Source: a virus
Direction: 5' to 3' (one strand)
IMG/VR virus record: IMGVR_UViG_3300030102_003564
Coordinates: 1-31,155 of that record
Length of the DNA stretch: 31,155 bases
In this document: one piece after another, positions 9,585-22,000 of the stretch
Position numbering within the stretch: position 1 is the first letter of the stretch
How the letters are laid out: each line of letters begins with the position of its first letter
Notes under the pieces: model-generated
The model's input: the letters and a program-made list of their open reading frames with translations, nothing else
Told to the model about the DNA's origin: nothing
The model's database searches: none
Translations under genes and position numbers: made by a program

Positions 9585-9851
9585 TCAGTCCTCGTCCGTT
9601 ACCTCTATCGAGTGCATAATCTTGTTAAACTCATCTGCCGTAAGGCCAGCCTGCTTTGCGCAGTTAGCAGCCGCCAGCAAACAGGCTTCCATGAGAGACG
9701 CATACGGCACATCTGCCGTAACGTGCATCCCGTTCAAGTTGCAGATCAACGCTGAGTGCGCAGCGTCTACATCATCATCAAGATCATCTTCGGGGGTAAA
9801 CACAAGCTCCAACTTTGGCTTTCTTGGAAACTGCACAACATTGTCACTCAT
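9585..9851 (-). CDS. Small acidic hypothetical protein after large terminase
   Basis: 88 residues. The ATG at 9851 overlaps the large-terminase stop (ATGA) and so is coupled to it; a GTG three codons earlier is less likely. The start MSDNVVQFPRKPKLELVF is followed by an acidic linker with five Asp in seven residues, then a helical domain ASLMEACLLAAANCAKQAG and a second helix FNKIMHSIEV. An N-terminal NVVxFPRK motif occurs in many small alphaproteobacterial phage and host proteins. Function is unknown. Confidence 0.75.
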   Translation of the reverse strand: MSDNVVQFPRKPKLELVFTPEDDLDDDVDAAHSALICNLNGMHVTADVPYASLMEACLLAAANCAKQAGLTADEFNKIMHSIEVTDED

Positions 9852-11239
9852 ACAACCCACCGCGCATCTGGCTTATAAGTCCCTCTGGTGTTCCAACGTG
9901 AAGCCTGCCCCATAGCCGTTGCACCTTCCTGTGCAAAGGTCAGGACAAACGCGTCAGCAACGTCAGGAGACCTCTGCCCCCTGCGCTTCATCTCGTCCTT
10001 ACTCTCAATCTTCAACTTGCCTGTTGACTGATACTTGTACCGAACAGCCGTCACTTCGCTTATAAGGGCTTCATCGTTTGGTATGTGACAATCTCTTGCC
10101 TCAAACCACTCACGCGCTTTCCAGAACAACTCGTCCCGCAGCCGCGTGAACCGATCCTTCAGCGATGGGCTTTCTGATACCGCGATGCCTATAGCTGGCA
10201 GATCCAACTCCGACAGCCTGTCAGCCAAGCCGCCACCAACCCCGATGGAATCTATAAAGATGCTCGATGGGCGCAACGTGTAAGGCGTGGCCTCATACTC
10301 CGACAGGATAATACCCGCCATCTCCATCAAATCTTTACCCTGCCAAGTCTTGCACTTCTCAACAAGCACCTGCCCCTGACGCTTGCATAAAGCACTCCTG
10401 TCACCACCAAAACGTGCAACGTCTATCCCCCACACTACAGGGGTCATAGGACTTGGCTCAATGTCACGCTTTACAGCGTCCTCTACCAAGTGCAGAGGCA
10501 AAAGAACATCATCCGACTGCGTCGGGAACTCGCCATAAACGCGGATGCGGGTTACATTACTCTCCGCACCATACTTGGCAATCATATCCTCAACAAACTT
10601 CGGATCGACCGTATCAGCGTCCTCACAGGACACTGTCATACACTCAAACTGCTCTCTATTATTGTGAAAAGCATCAAAGAAAAACCCCTCCGCTCTGGTC
10701 GGGTTTCCTGTCAACACCGTCTTAGCGCCCTTCGTCGACATAGCGCCTTCACCGACCTGAAACACCACATCAGGCACGCCGGACGCCTCATCTACAACGA
10801 TGAGCATATTCTCACTGTGGAAGCCCTGCAAAGCCTCTGGATTCTCTCTGCGGCTCGTTCTAAAAGCGCAAAAGCTGTCACTGCTGCCAGCCAAACTGAT
10901 CTTGTCGCTCTTGAAGTCCAACTGGTTGTTGAACCCTTCGGGCATCATCCGCGCCCACTTATCAACCTCAGTCCACAACACATCATTCAACTGATGCGCT
11001 GTGTTTGCCGTAGCAACAATCTTTGTGGGATAACGCGTCAACAACCACCACAATATCAGCCAAGACAAAAACGCCGTTTTTCCAACGCCGTGACCTGACT
11101 TGATCGCAACCTTATCATTCGCCGCAATCGCCCTCAAAGCCTCTGTCTGCCACTGCTGTGGTTCAGCACCAATAACGTGCCGGACAAACATCTCTGGGTT
11201 ATTCCGAAGCTGTAACAGCGTGTCCTGTAGATCAGTCAA
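9848..11239 (-). CDS. terL: Terminase large subunit
   Basis: 463 residues from a TTG at 11239. The frame is open to 11365, but those 42 extra codons only read the ArfA-like gene out of frame. From the TTG the protein starts LTDLQDTLLQLRNNPEMF, the usual opening of this family. The ATPase has Walker A SGHGVGKT (48-55) and Walker B LIVVDEA (about 146-152). The nuclease has GIDVARFGGDRSAL (Asp273), IFIDSIGVGGG (Asp330) and SPDVADAFVL (Asp426, Asp429), an RNase H-type site. It powers DNA translocation through the portal and cuts the concatemer. The TTG overlaps the upstream stop by eight bases, so translation is probably coupled. Confidence 0.93.
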   Translation of the reverse strand: MTDLQDTLLQLRNNPEMFVRHVIGAEPQQWQTEALRAIAANDKVAIKSGHGVGKTAFLSWLILWWLLTRYPTKIVATANTAHQLNDVLWTEVDKWARMMPEGFNNQLDFKSDKISLAGSSDSFCAFRTSRRENPEALQGFHSENMLIVVDEASGVPDVVFQVGEGAMSTKGAKTVLTGNPTRAEGFFFDAFHNNREQFECMTVSCEDADTVDPKFVEDMIAKYGAESNVTRIRVYGEFPTQSDDVLLPLHLVEDAVKRDIEPSPMTPVVWGIDVARFGGDRSALCKRQGQVLVEKCKTWQGKDLMEMAGIILSEYEATPYTLRPSSIFIDSIGVGGGLADRLSELDLPAIGIAVSESPSLKDRFTRLRDELFWKAREWFEARDCHIPNDEALISEVTAVRYKYQSTGKLKIESKDEMKRRGQRSPDVADAFVLTFAQEGATAMGQASRWNTRGTYKPDARWVV

Positions 11240-11375
11240 GCGCCCGCCCCAATCCCAAAGCGCGTCTGGGAGATGCGCTTCTGCCTTTACGCGTATAACT
11301 GCCGCGACCCTTTCGGGATCGCACAACACGCTGCTTAAAACGCGGGTTGCGCAGTGATTTCGCAATTTTGTTCAT
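11232..11375 (-). CDS. arfA-like: ArfA-like alternative ribosome-rescue factor, 47 residues
   Basis: ATG at 11375 with GGGGA upstream, TGA at 11232. Residues 10-32 read NPRFKQRVVRSRKGRGSY then TRKGR. E. coli ArfA has DPLFRQRVEKNKKGKGSY then MRKGK: 13 of 23 identical and nearly all others conservative. ArfA sits in the empty mRNA channel of a stalled ribosome and recruits RF2. The KGKGSY-type segment is its hallmark. The N-terminal helix (IAKSLR) matches ArfA IEALLH. The C-terminus is short, like the processed active ArfA. A 6-bp inverted repeat (AAGCGC/GCGCTT, 11258-11280) follows the core codons. In E. coli a hairpin in arfA yields truncated product. The stop sits at the large-terminase start. 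Confidence 0.72.
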   Translation of the reverse strand: MNKIAKSLRNPRFKQRVVRSRKGRGSYTRKGRSASPRRALGLGRALD

Positions 11376-11404
11376 CGGAGTCCCCTATGCTTCCCAGATG
11401 CAAA

Positions 11405-11464
11405 GGGGGGGGTGAGTGGGGGGAAAGCGCAAGACCTGCCCCCGCGCAGAAATACAGGGGGGGG
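11405..11464 (+). other. Guanine-run cluster in the terminase gap
   Basis: Three uninterrupted G runs lie within 60 bases on the plus strand: eight at 11405-11412, six at 11418-11423 and eight at 11457-11464, with a C5 run at 11439-11443. Such runs stand out against the rest of the window and could form a G-quadruplex or unusual DNA structure. The place, between small and large terminase genes, is where packaging start sites (pac or cos) often lie, but no proof is visible. Confidence 0.5.
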
Positions 11465-11500: not shown

Positions 11501-11521
11501 TGGCGATACATTGGCGATACA
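11501..11521 (-). repeat. Pair of TGTATCGCCA repeats identical to attP arm sites
   Basis: On the minus strand TGTATCGCCA occurs twice (11512-11521 and 11501-11510), starts 11 bases apart. The same decamer with the same 11-base spacing flanks the attP core at 21767-21787, and more copies lie at 21950-22000. I saw no other copies in the window. The pair sits in the non-coding gap between small terminase and the ArfA-like gene. The rest of this 200-base gap (11376-11574) holds only the G runs. Confidence 0.75.
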
Positions 11522-11574
11522 CGCCGCAAAGCCGCAGTATTGCTAGAGTTTAGTCAGGCTTGTTATCTAACGAC

Positions 11575-12045
11575 CTAATGAATTGACTTGTTTTTTGGCT
11601 TGTCTGCCTCGCGTGCGCGTACTGCGGAAAGTTGTGCTGGAGTAACATCCTCACTTACTTTCCCCTGCACTGCCTTCAATGCCTCCACATAGCTGCCACC
11701 AGCTTCATGCTCCACCTGCACCCTATCGCCAAACTTCTTTGGCGACATTCTAGCGGCACTCCACTTGAGTCCGTCTATAGCTGCACGCAGCATAGCGCTG
11801 TCCTTATACTTCCCCTGCAGGCCAGCCAGCGATATCTCAGCCACCAATTCCCCATAGTAATTGCCACGCTCTTCTTTTGCCTGATCATACTGGCGTGCAA
11901 ACACTGGATCGCTATCCACCCAATTCTGTATCGTCTTGCTGCTTGGCATACCTTCCTGCTTGCAAGCTTGCGCACAGGAGCGTCCGTTCTTAATCATATC
12001 AAGAAAGGCTGCAACGACTTCAGGTGTCTTTTTTGTCGGATTCAT
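11575..12045 (-). CDS. terS: Terminase small subunit (Sf6-like)
   Basis: 156 residues from ATG 12045 (AGGA ten bases upstream); a GTG seven codons earlier has no ribosome binding site. The N-terminal helix-turn-helix (PEVVAAFLDMIKNGRSCAQA, MPSSKTIQNWVDSD) is of the type that opens Sf6-like small terminases. A central helical oligomerisation region (FARQYDQAKEERGNYYGELV, LKWSAARMSPKKFGDR) follows, with the family's conserved KWxAxxMxPKKFGDR. The C-terminus is charged. It recognises the packaging site and delivers DNA to the large subunit. It overlaps the methyltransferase gene by 26 bases. An unusual 200-base gap separates it from the next gene. Confidence 0.88.
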   Translation of the reverse strand: MNPTKKTPEVVAAFLDMIKNGRSCAQACKQEGMPSSKTIQNWVDSDPVFARQYDQAKEERGNYYGELVAEISLAGLQGKYKDSAMLRAAIDGLKWSAARMSPKKFGDRVQVEHEAGGSYVEALKAVQGKVSEDVTPAQLSAVRAREADKPKNKSIH

Positions 12046-13258
12046 TAAACGTCTTTCCTGTCTCACAATGCACTGCGTCTTGGCCTGTAAACTCCTGCCA
12101 GCGCTTTAAAATTACATCCACATACTTTTCATCAAGCTCGTTAATGTATGCGTTCCTGCCGCTCTTCTCAGCCGCTATCAGCGTGCTTCCAGAGCCACCA
12201 AACAAGTCCAGAACTATATCTGCACCTTTCGTGTTATTAAGTATTTGATACTCAATCAAATCCACAGGCTTCATAGTCGGATGCACATCGTTCCGCTTAG
12301 GCCTGTCAAACTTCAGGATAGTTGTCTGCTTCCTGTCGGATGCCCACAGGTGCGAGGCGCCTTTTTTCCATCCGTATAAGCATGGTTCGTGCTTCCAGTG
12401 ATAGTCCTGCCGTCCCATCACCATCACGTCTTTGTCCCAGATAAGGCACTGCCTAACTTCCCAATCGATATCGTAGCAAGCGCCTCTGAAATTGTATCCT
12501 TCGCTGTCCGCGTGCCAAATATAAAAAGCCGCACCCTTCTTCATCACTATATCAGCAGTGCTGAAGCTATCGACTAGAAACTGTCTGAAGGTATCGTCCG
12601 ACATCTTGTCGTTTTGTATCTTCAACGCGTCTTTTGTCTTGCCGGTGTAATCCACGTTATACGGCGGATCTGTCAGCAACATATCGGCAAGCTGACCATC
12701 CATCAGAGTTTCTATATCGGTGAGAACCGTAGCATCCCCGCATAGCACTCTATGCCTGCCAAGCTGCCACACGTCACCTCTTACGCTCACAGCTTCTTCT
12801 GCAAGCTCTGGAGCGTCGTCAGGGTCAGTAAGCCCTTCATCCACCTTATTGGCTTCAGCCAACAGGCTGTCTATCTCGTCTGCACCAAAGCCGGTCAGGT
12901 CTAGGTCGAACCCCTGCTCAAGCAGCTCTTCGACCTCTACCGCCAGCATTTCGGAGTCCCATCCGGCGTTCAATGCCAGCTTATTGTCAGCTATGACATA
13001 GGCACGCTTCTGTGCGTCTGTTAAGCCCTCAAGCCGTATTGTCGGCACTTCGGATAAGCCCAAGCGCTGCGCAGCCATAAGCCTGCCATGACCCGCTATG
13101 ATCGTGCTTGTCTCGTCAATGAGTATCGGATTAGTCCACCCGAACTCTTTAATGCTTGCCGCTACCTGTGCAACCTGTTCATCGCTGTGAGTGCGGCTGT
13201 TGCGTGCATAAGGCGTGATTGCCTTTGCATCCAAGTATTGAATTTGTATCCCAGACAT
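12020..13258 (-). CDS. ParB-like nuclease domain fused to DNA methyltransferase
   Basis: 412 residues, ATG at 13258. Residues 1-95 are a ParB/Srx-type domain: ITPYARNSRTHSDEQVAQVA, then PILIDETSTIIAGHGRLMAA. Residues 155-395 are an N6-adenine or N4-cytosine methyltransferase of the beta class: catalytic TDPPYNVDY (196-204) precedes the AdoMet-binding DLFGGSGST (351-359), with HPTMKP (326-331) before it. ParB-methylase fusions are common in phages of proteobacteria. No cognate restriction enzyme is present, so protection of phage DNA from host restriction or marking of packaged DNA is more likely than restriction-modification. The start codon abuts a terminator stem and lacks a free ribosome binding site. 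Confidence 0.92.
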   Translation of the reverse strand: MSGIQIQYLDAKAITPYARNSRTHSDEQVAQVAASIKEFGWTNPILIDETSTIIAGHGRLMAAQRLGLSEVPTIRLEGLTDAQKRAYVIADNKLALNAGWDSEMLAVEVEELLEQGFDLDLTGFGADEIDSLLAEANKVDEGLTDPDDAPELAEEAVSVRGDVWQLGRHRVLCGDATVLTDIETLMDGQLADMLLTDPPYNVDYTGKTKDALKIQNDKMSDDTFRQFLVDSFSTADIVMKKGAAFYIWHADSEGYNFRGACYDIDWEVRQCLIWDKDVMVMGRQDYHWKHEPCLYGWKKGASHLWASDRKQTTILKFDRPKRNDVHPTMKPVDLIEYQILNNTKGADIVLDLFGGSGSTLIAAEKSGRNAYINELDEKYVDVILKRWQEFTGQDAVHCETGKTFNESDKKDT

Positions 13259-17038: not shown

Positions 17039-17959
17039 ATGAGTGATGACACACCAAAGCCAGAAAAGAGTGAAGACGCGCAGGACATTCCGGCGTATTT
17101 TCGCTCTTTTTCTTTAAGCACAAAGTCATTAGATGAGCGCCTGACCACCATAGGCGGCTCTGACATCAATATACTGGCAAGCGCCGACCCTAAAGAAATA
17201 AACCGCCTTTACGATAAAAAGGTAAACGCGCTGCATGATGACCTCAGTATGGTCTGGCCTGTTTTGATGGGCCATGTAACTGAGGACGTAAACACCGAAT
17301 GGTGTGCGTATAAGCAGGGAATCGACATTGTAGACCGTCAACGAATTATACGCGGAAAAAAGTACAAATTTATGCGCTGCACTCTTGACGGCGCTGTCAG
17401 AAAGTATAAAGGCACGCAAGCCGTATTTGACGCAAAGTTTACGCTTGGTCGCCCTATGAAGGGTGAGGCGTGGGATGAAGTGATCCCCCGCTTGGTGCGC
17501 AAATACACACCGCAGCTTCATTGGAACGCTTACCTTCTAGCAGAAGAAACAAACAAGCCTGTCGAGTACGGCCTGCTTTCTATATTGCGTGGCGGCAACG
17601 AGCCGACCTTTCATGAAGTGCCTATAGATCCAGAATATACACAACACCTCATCGGGCTTGCCACATACTTTATGGGCTGCATTGAGATGGGCGTGTATCC
17701 AGAAGAAGTAGAGCGCAGGGAAGTCACACTGCCGCCAGAGGAACGTCTGCCTGTAGATATGGAGCAGAGCAACAACGGGCCGCGCTGGAAACAACTCGCC
17801 GAAACTTACAGGCAAGTTGCAGGCGCAGCCGACACATTCAAAAAGACTGAAACTGAAATCAAAAAGCTAGTGCCGCCCAGTGCTTCAGAGGCTTTCGGGC
17901 ATGGCATCCGCGTGAAGGTATCCAAGAACAATGCAAAGAAAGTGGAGATCATCAAATGA
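17039..17959 (+). CDS. YqaJ/lambda-exonuclease-type recombination nuclease
   Basis: 306 residues, ATG 17039 with AGGGG upstream. The N-terminal RLTTIGGSDINILASADPKE is the typical GGSD opening of phage YqaJ-like exonucleases. MGHVTEDVNTEWCAYKQG is the helix with the conserved Gly-x-x-x-Glu. CTLDGAVRKYKGTQAVFDAK holds the active site: Asp117 in LDG, then Asp131-Ala-Lys133, where most relatives have Glu-x-Lys. It degrades one strand of double-stranded DNA from ends to give tails for the annealing protein encoded next, with which it overlaps (ATGA). The last 70 residues are helical and basic. The Glu-to-Asp change is conservative. Confidence 0.85.
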   Translation: MSDDTPKPEKSEDAQDIPAYFRSFSLSTKSLDERLTTIGGSDINILASADPKEINRLYDKKVNALHDDLSMVWPVLMGHVTEDVNTEWCAYKQGIDIVDRQRIIRGKKYKFMRCTLDGAVRKYKGTQAVFDAKFTLGRPMKGEAWDEVIPRLVRKYTPQLHWNAYLLAEETNKPVEYGLLSILRGGNEPTFHEVPIDPEYTQHLIGLATYFMGCIEMGVYPEEVERREVTLPPEERLPVDMEQSNNGPRWKQLAETYRQVAGAADTFKKTETEIKKLVPPSASEAFGHGIRVKVSKNNAKKVEIIK

Positions 17960-18549
17960 GTGAGTTAGCAAAGGCGCTGGTCAAATGGCACGCCACGAAC
18001 CCGAAGGCGCGGCTGGACAGTAAGAACCCGCACTTCAAAAGCGAGTTTGCATCGCTGGAAAGTGTAATTGCTTGCGTAAATAGCGCGTCCGCTTATGGCA
18101 TCACCTTTATGCAGCCGACAGGCTTTGACGGTGATATCGACTATGTCGAAACGATTATGATCCATGAAGGCGGTGAGGAGCGTGTAGCACGCACAAAGAT
18201 AAAGTCGAAAGACTCCTCAGACCCACAGAAATATGGGGCTGGGATTACTTATGCAAAACGCTTCGGCTTGCAGTCTTTGTTCGGCATCGCCGACACAGAT
18301 GACGATGGCAATTTAGCAAGCCAGCCACCGAAAGAAGCGCCACCAGTTGGTAACTCCCTGTCCAACGGCGCTACCCCCGCCCCCCAAACAAATCCTCCAG
18401 CTGGTGGGGCGGGGATGTCCTTAGAAGAAGAATTGTCAATGGCAGAGACGCAAGACCAGCTTCTCGCATTGTTCAATAGGGTCAAACCTACAGACCCGAA
18501 AGTGATCCAGTTGTTTAGCAAGAGAAAGGATGCGATCAATGGACAATGA
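17956..18549 (+). CDS. erf: ERF-family single-strand annealing protein
   Basis: 197 residues, ATG overlapping the exonuclease stop. Residues 1-120 match the ERF domain: DSKNPHFKSEFASLESVIAC near the start, GITFMQPTGF, then TIMIHEGGEERVARTKI, and the most typical block QKYGAGITYAKRFGLQSLFG followed by IADTDDDGN. A Pro/Ala linker follows, then a C-terminal helical tail LEEELSMAETQDQLLALFNR that may bind partners. ERF proteins anneal homologous single strands, here with the exonuclease upstream, for recombination or circularisation of phage DNA. Confidence 0.92.
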   Translation: MSELAKALVKWHATNPKARLDSKNPHFKSEFASLESVIACVNSASAYGITFMQPTGFDGDIDYVETIMIHEGGEERVARTKIKSKDSSDPQKYGAGITYAKRFGLQSLFGIADTDDDGNLASQPPKEAPPVGNSLSNGATPAPQTNPPAGGAGMSLEEELSMAETQDQLLALFNRVKPTDPKVIQLFSKRKDAINGQ

Positions 18550-19530: not shown

Positions 19531-19763
19531 CCGTCCGCTACGTTACGCACGCTGAGATAGGTGCTTATGAGGAGAAGGGCTGGACGGTTGTGAGCCGCTT
19601 TGAAGGCTCACACCACGCCCGATATGCAGTGATTATGCAAGCACCTTCTGAGCAATCGTTTCTAGATCTGACACGTTATGCGCCAGCTTCACATCCGCGT
19701 CAGTGTAATGCACCTTCGCAGTGTTCGACTTCTTCGAGTGACCCATCCGATATTTGCGGATAG
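19527..19763 (+). CDS. Small hypothetical protein, overlaps integrase gene tail to tail
   Basis: 78 residues from a GTG at 19527 that overlaps the upstream stop (GTGA). VTVRYVTHAEIGAYEEKGWT, then VVSRFEGSHHARYAVIMQAP is a compact alpha-beta unit resembling small proteins with a 'GW...GSHHxRYAVxM' core in other phages. The last 44 codons lie over the 3' end of the integrase gene on the other strand, 131 bases of convergent overlap, and look less protein-like (Ser/Cys/Pro rich). Start and end are both somewhat uncertain. Confidence 0.55.
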   Translation: MTVRYVTHAEIGAYEEKGWTVVSRFEGSHHARYAVIMQAPSEQSFLDLTRYAPASHPRQCNAPSQCSTSSSDPSDICG

Positions 19764-20748
19764 ACTCCGGCACGCCTGCCACTTCCATTTGAGTGTGATA
19801 AAACTTGCGGAAGCCACCCAAGCCTCTGTCCTTTACACCCGCCTGCTTGCAGGCTTGTGCCACCTGTTTGCGCCAAGCGTTTTGTTCACCCATGCGCCCA
19901 CTAACGGCTGGAAAGACCCAAACCTGAGTGTGGCATTGTAGCTGCCACTCACGCAGCGTCTTGATAAGGATAGATGGAAGCGGGAGACTGCGGCGCCGAT
20001 ACTCCGTCTTTGTCTCGTCCTGCACCATATACCTGAAGCCTGTGCGCTGCACCGACAGAGTGCCAGCGTAAAGGTCTATGTCCTTCCATTGTAGCCCCTG
20101 CAACTCGTTTGCTGCGAGTCCTGTAAGCGCTGCGGTTGTGATCATAGCGCGTACCTGTAGCGGCATCTCTGCCGAAAGGATCGCCTGCACCTGATCTGCG
20201 GTGTAGCCTTTGCGCTCCCCCATCGAGCCGCGTATCTGTTGCCTGTCGCCTTTGGCACAGGGGTTGGTCAAAAGATAGCCTTTGGCAACGGCGTGCTTGC
20301 AGACCATATTAAGCGTGTTGATAACGTGGCGCTGTGTCTTAGGGCTGATCTCATCAGCCGCCATCTTGTTTATGTAAAGATTGATGTCGCCTGTCGTGAG
20401 GTTGCGCATCTGCACATTAGAAAAATGCGGCGTAAGATACAGGCGCAAGTGGCGCTCGTCATTCTTGTGCGTTTGAGACCGAATACCGTTTTTCTTGCCA
20501 ACCAGTTCGGCTCTGGCCTCTAGTGCTTCAGCCGCTACTTTGCTGAAAGAGATGCGGTTAGCGTTGTGCTGCCCCGCCTTTAGGTCGCTGTCAAGCTGGG
20601 CAATCTTTCTGAACATTTCAGCTTGAGACTTTGAATAAATGCGTCTGCGCTTGCCAGAGTTGTCTTTGTAAGAGACGACCCACGATGTGCGTGTTGTGCC
20701 GTCTCTTTGCACCACCTCTGTGGTCGTTGGTGTGCCGATATGGATCAT
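19633..20748 (-). CDS. int: Tyrosine integrase with altered catalytic residues
   Basis: 371 residues, ATG 20748 overlapping the upstream stop. The N-terminal arm-binding part has SWVVSYKDNSGKRRRIYSKS. The core-binding SAM-like region reads HLRLYLTPHFSNVQMRNLTT. The catalytic domain starts near 180. Of the usual set, Lys247, Arg314 (GGFRKFYHT), His337 (MGHSKKS) and the nucleophile Tyr348 (KVHYT) are present. But the first Arg in TGLR-x-x-E is Ala212 (TGLAANELQGLQW), and the His of H-x-L-R is Gly311. It would insert the phage at a tRNA-fMet gene using attP 1 kb away. The codons are plain GCA and GGT, so this is not a reading-frame error. Activity is uncertain. Confidence 0.9.
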   Translation of the reverse strand: MIHIGTPTTTEVVQRDGTTRTSWVVSYKDNSGKRRRIYSKSQAEMFRKIAQLDSDLKAGQHNANRISFSKVAAEALEARAELVGKKNGIRSQTHKNDERHLRLYLTPHFSNVQMRNLTTGDINLYINKMAADEISPKTQRHVINTLNMVCKHAVAKGYLLTNPCAKGDRQQIRGSMGERKGYTADQVQAILSAEMPLQVRAMITTAALTGLAANELQGLQWKDIDLYAGTLSVQRTGFRYMVQDETKTEYRRRSLPLPSILIKTLREWQLQCHTQVWVFPAVSGRMGEQNAWRKQVAQACKQAGVKDRGLGGFRKFYHTQMEVAGVPESIRKYRMGHSKKSNTAKVHYTDADVKLAHNVSDLETIAQKVLA

Positions 20749-21305
20749 TGTTCCGCCCTATCCTTTTCAGCTTCTTTTACAATTTCTGTTATATCTGAAA
20801 GGCTTTCATTTTGCCTTTGCCGACCATATTCTGTGAGTGAATAAACTTCATCACAGACCCATCTTAACAGTCCTTCCACCCTTCCACTGGTAAAACTGGT
20901 GACGTTATAATCATCCAATCTAAACCCCGCCGCCTTTAACGAAGTCCCTGACTCATGCGGCTGGGTGTAAGTAACAATTTGTCTGTAACCCATCGCAAAG
21001 CACGCTTGTTTCGCTTTGCCGATTAAAAAGCTGGTTGTGTTTTGTTTTGCAAATGGCGCAGCACATATACGACGAATTTCTACGCGGTCTCTGTCCTTTG
21101 ACCAAGCAGAACTGCATCTGTCTACCGTCAAGACGCCATGTAGCCCAACAGGAAAATCAACAAGTTTTGAGCCAAACATGAGCATTGTATCGTATGCTCC
21201 TATAGAGAACATGTGTCTTTTTAACGGTTTCGAGTGACGGTGAAAGCGCTCAACAAATGCCTGCGCTTCCCCCAGTTTTAAATTTATATGACGCAGCTTG
21301 CCCAT
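20745..21305 (-). CDS. XF1762-like phage protein, GNAT acetyltransferase type
   Basis: 186 residues from ATG 21305 with GAGAGG upstream and the upstream stop overlapping (TGATG); the longer frame has no such site. AFVERFHRHSKPLKRHMFSI near the start, GVLTVDRCSSAWSKDRDRVE, then IRRICAAPFAKQNTTSFLIG and MGYRQIVTYTQPHESGTSL and KAAGFRLDD match the phage family often labelled XF1762, which has the GNAT fold with a 'R(I/V)C...N..S.L...A...MGY..I.TYT' core. The acceptor is unknown. It is cotranscribed with the integrase. Confidence 0.85.
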   Translation of the reverse strand: MGKLRHINLKLGEAQAFVERFHRHSKPLKRHMFSIGAYDTMLMFGSKLVDFPVGLHGVLTVDRCSSAWSKDRDRVEIRRICAAPFAKQNTTSFLIGKAKQACFAMGYRQIVTYTQPHESGTSLKAAGFRLDDYNVTSFTSGRVEGLLRWVCDEVYSLTEYGRQRQNESLSDITEIVKEAEKDRAEQ

Positions 21306-21652
21306 CACACCTCTCCAGTAAACGGCACGATACCAGACTGAACTACGACGCACTCTTCAGTCTCTAGATCGTATTTTGAGTGGTCATGGCAGTTGTCTAA
21401 AAAAAGAACGTCGGCGTCCTGTTCAGATAAATACTCTGAAAGATGGGAGTAAAACCAATCTGGGTCAGGTTCGGTGCGGGGGACTTCGTTGCCATCTTCA
21501 TCCAGAGTTAGATCAGGTGACTCATCATCCTCAAACTCATCTGGCGCACCGTAATGGTCAATCGCCCACTGCTTTAGTTCGTTCTCATCTACATCAATAA
21601 CCAATTCGAAAATCTTGACATCGGTCTTTTCAATTTTGATTTTTGCCTGCAT
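21305..21652 (-). CDS. Acidic hypothetical protein, first gene of integrase operon
   Basis: 115 residues, ATG 21652 with GGGAGAG upstream. A short beta-rich N-terminus (KIKIEKTDVKIFELVIDVD) leads into a highly acidic middle (EFEDDESPDLTLDEDG) and a C-terminal part with WFYSHLSEYLSEQDADVLFL and CHDHSKYDLETEECVVV. Net charge is strongly negative, which recalls DNA-mimic proteins, but no such family is recognised. No excisionase-like HTH is present. It lies directly behind the promoter at 21703-21731. Confidence 0.7.
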   Translation of the reverse strand: MQAKIKIEKTDVKIFELVIDVDENELKQWAIDHYGAPDEFEDDESPDLTLDEDGNEVPRTEPDPDWFYSHLSEYLSEQDADVLFLDNCHDHSKYDLETEECVVVQSGIVPFTGEV

Positions 21653-21731: not shown

Positions 21732-21766
21732 GCATTTATGCAAATAAAATCACGAAAGCCTGACGA

Positions 21767-21787
21767 TGTATCGCCACTGTATCGCCA
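21767..21787 (+). repeat. attP left arm: two TGTATCGCCA integrase-type sites
   Basis: TGTATCGCCA at 21767-21776 and 21778-21787, each followed by C, starts 11 bases apart. With three more copies on the other side of the tRNA-like core they have the look of arm-type integrase binding sites. Confidence 0.75.
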
Positions 21788-21842: not shown

Positions 21843-21868
21843 GTAAACTATTGATATGTATAGGTTTT

Positions 21869-21920
21869 TGGTTGCGGGGGTAGGATTTGAACCTACGACC
21901 TTCAGGTTATGAGCCTGACA
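21869..21920 (-). other. attP: attP core: 3' half of initiator tRNA-Met (fMet)
   Basis: On the minus strand the sequence runs from TGTCAGG, through the anticodon CAT within GGCTCATAACC, the T arm GGTTCAAATCC, to the acceptor end CCCCGCAACCA. It carries A72 before the ACCA end, the mark of bacterial initiator tRNA. The 5' half (D arm and acceptor 5' strand) is missing, so this is not a working tRNA but the identity segment by which integration restores the host gene. The region 21653-22004 has no protein gene; it holds the promoter, arm sites, terminator and this core. Confidence 0.88.
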
Positions 21921-21949
21921 TTTCTGGCGGAAACCCTAAAGCAACTCAG

Positions 21950-22000
21950 CGTATCGCCAATGTATCGCCACGCTTTCGGGAGGAGGGATTTGTATCGCCA
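21950..22000 (+). repeat. attP right arm: three TGTATCGCCA-type sites
   Basis: CGTATCGCCA (21950-21959, first base differs), TGTATCGCCA (21961-21970) and TGTATCGCCA (21991-22000), all in the same direction as the left-arm pair. The first two have the 11-base spacing. Confidence 0.75.

Follow-up and report, generated by a model that had tools for sequence, protein, structure and literature searches.

A slot between the terminase genes of marine phages most likely serves as a lox-like site for making single-unit circles of phage DNA

Why should the arm-type repeats of a phage attachment site recur 10 kb away, between the genes of the small and the large terminase? The question was raised by the IMG/VR virus record IMGVR_UViG_3300030102_003564, whose 31,155 bases are referred to below as the window, that is, the whole stretch of DNA that was analyzed.

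Arm-type repeats at attP and between the terminase genes

The genes and attachment site elements of the window that bear on this question are the following:

9848–11365 (−): terL, large terminase (phrog_2; PF03237)
11575–12066 (−): terS, Sf6-type small terminase of the headful/pac family (PF20901, E 1.6e-23; phrog_1482)
17039–17959 (+): YqaJ-like exonuclease
17956–18549 (+): ERF annealing protein
19633–20748 (−): tyrosine integrase, lambda-Int-like (PF00589)
21767–21787 (+): P-arm pair of arm-type sites of attP
21902–21918 (+): attP core, TCAGG-TTATGAG-CCTGA, corresponding to the tRNA-Met anticodon stem-loop in antisense
21950–22000 (+): P' arm of attP, with a pair of arm-type sites at 21950 and 21961 and a third site at 21991

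The predicted model of the integrase contains a b-b-b-a N-terminal domain of the arm-binding type, followed by the core-binding and catalytic domains, and its best match in the PDB was lambda Int on COC' (1z1b). Judged by this model, the enzyme possesses the arm-binding N-domain that characterizes lambda-type (heterobivalent) integrases. A Mom-like DNA modification protein (phrog_1384, weak PF25680) is encoded beside the integrase at 20745–21353 (−).

The attP core falls in the antisense 3' half of a tRNA-Met gene (Rfam tRNA match at 21873–21950). The attPs of the relatives contained an identical core, and the overlap was constant in the attPs seen. Between the P arm and the core, the sequence TAA-ACTA-TTGATA (21844–21856, +) resembles the IHF consensus. 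An extended core-type half-site, CCTGACG (21759–21765), directly precedes the P-arm pair, as it does in most of the attPs examined. Junctions of the attL and attR type were sought in bacterial genomes; the integrase profile matched one MAG contig only, and no TerL match was found in that MAG.

The decamer TGTATCGCCA was found in six exact copies in the window, solely around attP and in the terS–terL gap, together with one copy of CGTATCGCCA. At attP, the exact copies start at 21767, 21778, 21961 and 21991 (+), and CGTATCGCCA starts at 21950 in the P' arm. The gap contains the following elements:

11512–11521 (−): arm-type site 1 of the gap pair, TGTATCGCCA, exact match
11501–11510 (−): arm-type site 2 of the gap pair, TGTATCGCCA, exact match
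11400–11464 (−): C-run and G-run elements (CCCCCCCCT..GCGCGGGGGCAGG and CCCCCCCCTTTGC)

The gap pair reads in the direction from terS to terL. The layout given in a preliminary description of this DNA, with five copies at attP (one of them altered), two in the gap and an 11-base step, was confirmed down to the coordinates. Its opinion that chance recurrence is very unlikely also held, since 10 decamer matches with at most one mismatch were counted against 1.53 expected and none of 100 shuffles reached this number; the three remaining one-mismatch matches were single and scattered. A search of the whole window for exact tandem pairs of 10-mers with a step of 11 returned only two, those of the gap and the P arm, and lowering the identity to 9/10 added the P' pair and nothing further. 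The decamer is not frequent elsewhere in the window, and the shuffles and the tandem-pair scan together rule out chance recurrence of the pair.

Three further observations concern the surroundings of the pair. A 47-codon ORF between terS and terL (11232–11375, −) matched ArfA (PF03889, E 4e-7), the alternative ribosome-rescue factor. The terS–terL gap of relatives likewise contained very small ORFs of a similar kind or a short ORF for a hydrophobic product. Directly upstream of terS, the ORF at 12020–13258 (−) encodes a DNA methyltransferase to which a ParB-like domain is fused at the N-terminus.

Gap repeats and a core-like site across the clade

Relatives were gathered by terS, terL and integrase, and many of them are fragments. 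Throughout a wide clade, the gap contained two direct repeats of ~10 bases, located ~55 nt past the terS stop codon with a step of 11 or 12, and the sequence of these repeats varied by lineage. In contigs holding both loci, the gap repeats matched the contig's own attP arms in both sequence and step, and six arm classes were distinguished:

TGTATCGCCA, step 11: window, L140 and L105
TGTGTTGCCA, step 11: L004
TGGTGCTA, step 11: L118 and L120
TGGCGCTATG, step 11: L144
GTTAGCCAC, step 12: L161, L057, L167 and L178
TTTATCAC, step 12: L063 (its attP is L189)

For seven representatives, the mean best match between gap and attP was 0.90 on the diagonal and 0.58 off it. The observed sum was reached by 2 of 5040 permutations, the second of which merely swaps two contigs sharing one motif, and this count is not a strict probability because the six same-contig classes share ancestry. 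For further gap classes (GTGGACA, GGGCAAC, ATTAATCAC, TCGCAAA and TGGTGCTAC), attPs with the same arms were found elsewhere in the pool. The gap accompanying the most distant integrase (L129, 39%) contained one arm sequence in inverted orientation, and the pair there is not clean.

Since the gap pair co-varies with the attP arms, it is not a relic and appears to be maintained by the arm-reading protein. From this co-variation, it is nearly certain that whatever reads the attP arms would also read the pair between terS and terL. The preliminary description had proposed such binding in the gap, and the alignment of the relatives' terS–terL gaps, in which the arm motifs track with the attP arms in sequence and step, supports that proposal.

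Some contigs showed other arrangements. The gap at the start of contig 3300017735_000046 (L034:1–75) contained three tandem arm repeats (TGTTTCGCCA, TGTTTCGCCA and TGTATCGCCA), so the arm copy number differs between strains. Both termini of this contig lie in the gap and overlap imperfectly over ~130 nt, which was attributed to an assembly break between strain variants and is not proof of a DNA end. An unrelated prophage-like contig (L134:3209–3240) contained two copies of TGTATCGCCAT followed by ATAATCGCCA, which are arm-like and have a step of 11.

In addition to the arm pair, a core-like site was found near the terS stop codon:

11554–11570 (−): core-like site, with left half TTAGA (11566–11570), spacer TAACAAG (11559–11565) and right half CCTGA (11554–11558)
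11501–11574 (−): whole attL-like site, directly after the terS stop codon, consisting of the core-like site, ~31 nt and the arm pair

In the clade, the gap core takes the form T(T/C)AGG-N7-CCTGAC(G), compared with TCAGG-TTATGAG-CCTGAC at attP, and its spacer was 7 bp long in every case. The gap cores were aligned by anchoring on the right half-site (CCT[AG]A), so the conservation of that half is partly by construction. The left half-site, which did not anchor the search, contained ~1.3 bits per column against ~0.6 for the spacer in 46 distinct aligned sequences, one of which (L060) is a chance match. Without L060, 21 different spacers were counted among 45 distinct gap sites. Each differed from the attP overlap TTATGAG by at least two mismatches in either orientation (0 of 21 equal), and none of the 21 was a perfect palindrome. 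In the 11-step clade, the distance from core to arms was 30–33 nt in the gap and 31–33 nt at attP; in the 12-step clade, the corresponding values were 31–33 nt and 45 nt, about one helical turn apart.

Judged by these sequence features, the gap looks like an attL-like integrase site (core plus P'1P'2) with a private overlap. With lambda-type attachment sites, it shares arms identical to those of attP and inverted half-sites around a 7-bp overlap; it lacks the overlap identical to attP and attB that functional attP, attB, attL and attR sites have, and a self-matching asymmetric spacer between half-sites, as in lox-type sites, is found instead. Tyrosine integrases follow an overlap-identity rule. 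Because the overlap of the gap site differs from that of attP and attB, the site should have no recombination partner other than another copy of itself. The suggestion that the gap is a second site used in excision was nearly right as regards a second site, but a use in excision is unlikely, as the overlap never matches attP/attB. In the window, the gap site and attP are oppositely oriented, so that part of the genome would be inverted if they had a common overlap, an outcome that a private overlap would avoid.

The known site closest in layout is lambda attL, with its half-sites around a 7-bp overlap and tandem P' arms in register, and the integrase model matches lambda Int; recombination of attL with attL is known for lambda. 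Unlike lambda attL, the gap site is not a prophage junction: it is permanent in the phage genome and has its own overlap, two arms against three P' arms at attP and no clear IHF site between its core and its arms. The left half-site of the window, TTAGA, is itself imperfect, and an even weaker one, TTACA, occurs in part of the 12-step clade.

A dif-like site in integrase-less relatives

In a sister clade, the same slot was occupied by the sequence (C)GCATAA-N6-TTATGCGACA or a close variant, and the integrase core and pair were not found. Members include C72C1, a complete circular phage of 34,944 bases, as well as a 35.5-kb contig and numerous shorter ones. Neither C72C1 nor the long contigs of this clade contained a recombinase matching PF00589 or PF00239; C72C1 encodes a repressor and lacks an integrase.

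The sequence has putative XerC and XerD halves around a 6-bp center, TTATG in the inner part of the XerD half and an A at position 25. Comparison with the dif sites tabulated by Carnoy and Roten 2009 (PMC2731167) showed that its XerD half, TTATGCGACAA, matches Magnetospirillum magneticum dif at every base and that its XerC half resembles the one of Agrobacterium. The centers found were TGGACA, TGGAGG, TGGACG, TGAACG, TTAACG and ATACGG, and they differ from the tabulated chromosomal alpha dif centers. By its sequence, the gap site of the sister clade is classified as a XerCD dif-like site. Direct repeats with a step of 12 (GTGAAACATTCC) were observed next to the dif-like site in three gaps (L083, L093 and L096) and are possibly accessory sites for XerCD.

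When the slot states were placed on a tree of 84 TerL proteins, 54 gaps were of the att type, 23 of the dif type, 7 of neither and none of both; one of the seven (L049) contained an intact XerD half and a degenerate XerC half. The motif CATAA-N6-TTATGCGACA was absent from the gap of the window and from every att-labelled gap. The two kinds of site thus exclude each other. The C-run and G-run elements, on the other hand, are common to the gaps of the integrase and dif clades, C72C1 included, and are therefore independent of the integrase or other recombinase. These elements may belong to pac or to an RNA element.

The XerCD site dif and plasmid sites such as cer and psi, of which the latter resolve multimers, are similar to what is found in the slot of the integrase-less relatives. 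The difference is that in the window's clade the site would be read by the phage integrase and not by the host XerCD.

Cyclization beside pac and the competing explanations

These results allow us to assume that the slot most likely acts as a lox-like site through which these marine phages make single-unit circles of their DNA. We estimate the probability at about 0.7 that the gap pair is part of another recombination site of the integrase, attL-like in its layout, through which genomes are cyclized or resolved beside pac. It is also probable that the lambda-type integrase is doubly employed, for integration at attP and for Cre-like cyclization or monomerization beside pac, with the slot being filled by any tyrosine recombinase that is available, whether the integrase of the phage itself or the host XerCD.

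The pac site normally lies in or near terS. For the phages considered here, the position of pac and the headful mode are presumed from the terS family. Given a headful terS of the Sf6 type and pac near terS, a terminally redundant packaged genome would have a copy of the site at each end. The integrase would bind the gap core and arms directly after terS and recombine the two copies, so that the incoming DNA would be cyclized, and multimers would later be resolved to monomers by the same reaction. In the integrase-less relatives, the host XerCD would act at the dif-like site in the equivalent slot. As the slot holds either a self-matching site of the integrase or a host dif-like site, the simplest account is site-specific recombination between two slot copies, and the benefit would be cyclization or multimer resolution. 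Another route to circular DNA, one that does not involve the gap site, is possibly provided by the ERF protein and the YqaJ-type exonuclease.

A system of this kind is known from phage P1, where Cre-loxP cyclizes terminally redundant headful DNA and lox lies near pac. Cre-loxP also keeps the P1 genome monomeric (PMC2409434). Similarly, a phage tyrosine recombinase would act here on a self-matching site. Unlike the integrase of the window, Cre lacks an arm-binding domain, and P1 is not an integrating phage, whereas here a single lambda-type integrase would serve both attP and an attL-like site. In the open-licence literature, no report was found of an att-like, arm or dif-like site between terS and terL.

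A possible trace of recombination was observed in L118 and L120, whose genomes are ~96% identical and whose terS cassettes are swapped (L120:12323–12876 against L118:18515–20268); the exchanged segment has its right border 15 bp ahead of the gap core. This is suggestive, and modular exchange at gene borders explains the swap too.

The main competing explanation, which we consider unlikely, is that the integrase bound in the gap plays an architectural or regulatory role only, as a roadblock or repressor in the terS–arfA–terL operon or as a factor at pac, tying packaging to the integrase level with no strand exchange. It covers the coupling of lysogeny with packaging and the control of the leader proposed in the preliminary description. 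The site does lie within the packaging operon and adjoins the C-run and G-run elements kept in both clades, and an integrase can repress a promoter from an att site, as exemplified by KplE1 IntS (PMC2951348). However, the KplE1 site is a real attL that overlaps the int promoter, while the gap site is 8 kb away from int, and a search of the gap for sigma-70-type promoters and for terminators found none. Nor does binding alone predict a core-like site with an exact 7-bp spacing or its replacement by a dif-like site in relatives without an integrase.

It is quite improbable that the slot is a second attachment site for another host locus, with the dif-clade version being an attP for the host dif. 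Some integrase-less phages do integrate at dif motifs by way of the host XerCD (Jorvik, PMC10589892; filamentous phages, PMC2731167), and C72C1 has a repressor and no integrase. Against this, the integrase-bearing phages already own a full attP at tRNA-Met, and the centers of the dif clade are unlike the tabulated chromosomal ones. The free variation of the gap spacers, 21 in number against one constant attP overlap, makes a second integration site less likely. For the dif clade taken separately, it is possible that the site serves integration at the host dif, as in Jorvik (PMC10589892), rather than resolution.

There is very little probability that another attP-binding protein, e.g., an excisionase, reads the repeats at both loci in place of the integrase. 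Direct repeats are used by further attP proteins too, but here they flank the core in the lambda P/P' pattern (a pair on one side, a pair and a third site on the other), and core-type half-sites of the integrase are present in the gap as well. Finally, the notion of a functionless remnant, i.e., a duplicated or ancestral attP fragment, which the preliminary description had raised and which the likeness of the site to half an attP (core plus P' pair) invites, can practically be dismissed, because a relic would not track the arms of the current integrase across six or more arm classes and one change of step while being kept throughout the clade.

In the textbook view, a phage integrase carries out one reaction, that of attP with attB. 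If recombination between slot copies takes place as proposed, a lambda-type integrase also performs the circularization or monomerization that headful phages need, which would explain how terminally redundant temperate phages supply their integrase with a clean circle. Since relatives lacking an integrase have a XerCD dif-like site instead, this function is directly testable, with one slot, two recombinases and one predicted outcome. For uncultured phages, the results provide a sequence rule, namely arm repeats with a core, or dif, after terS, and they allow arm sites to be assigned to integrases from sequence alone.
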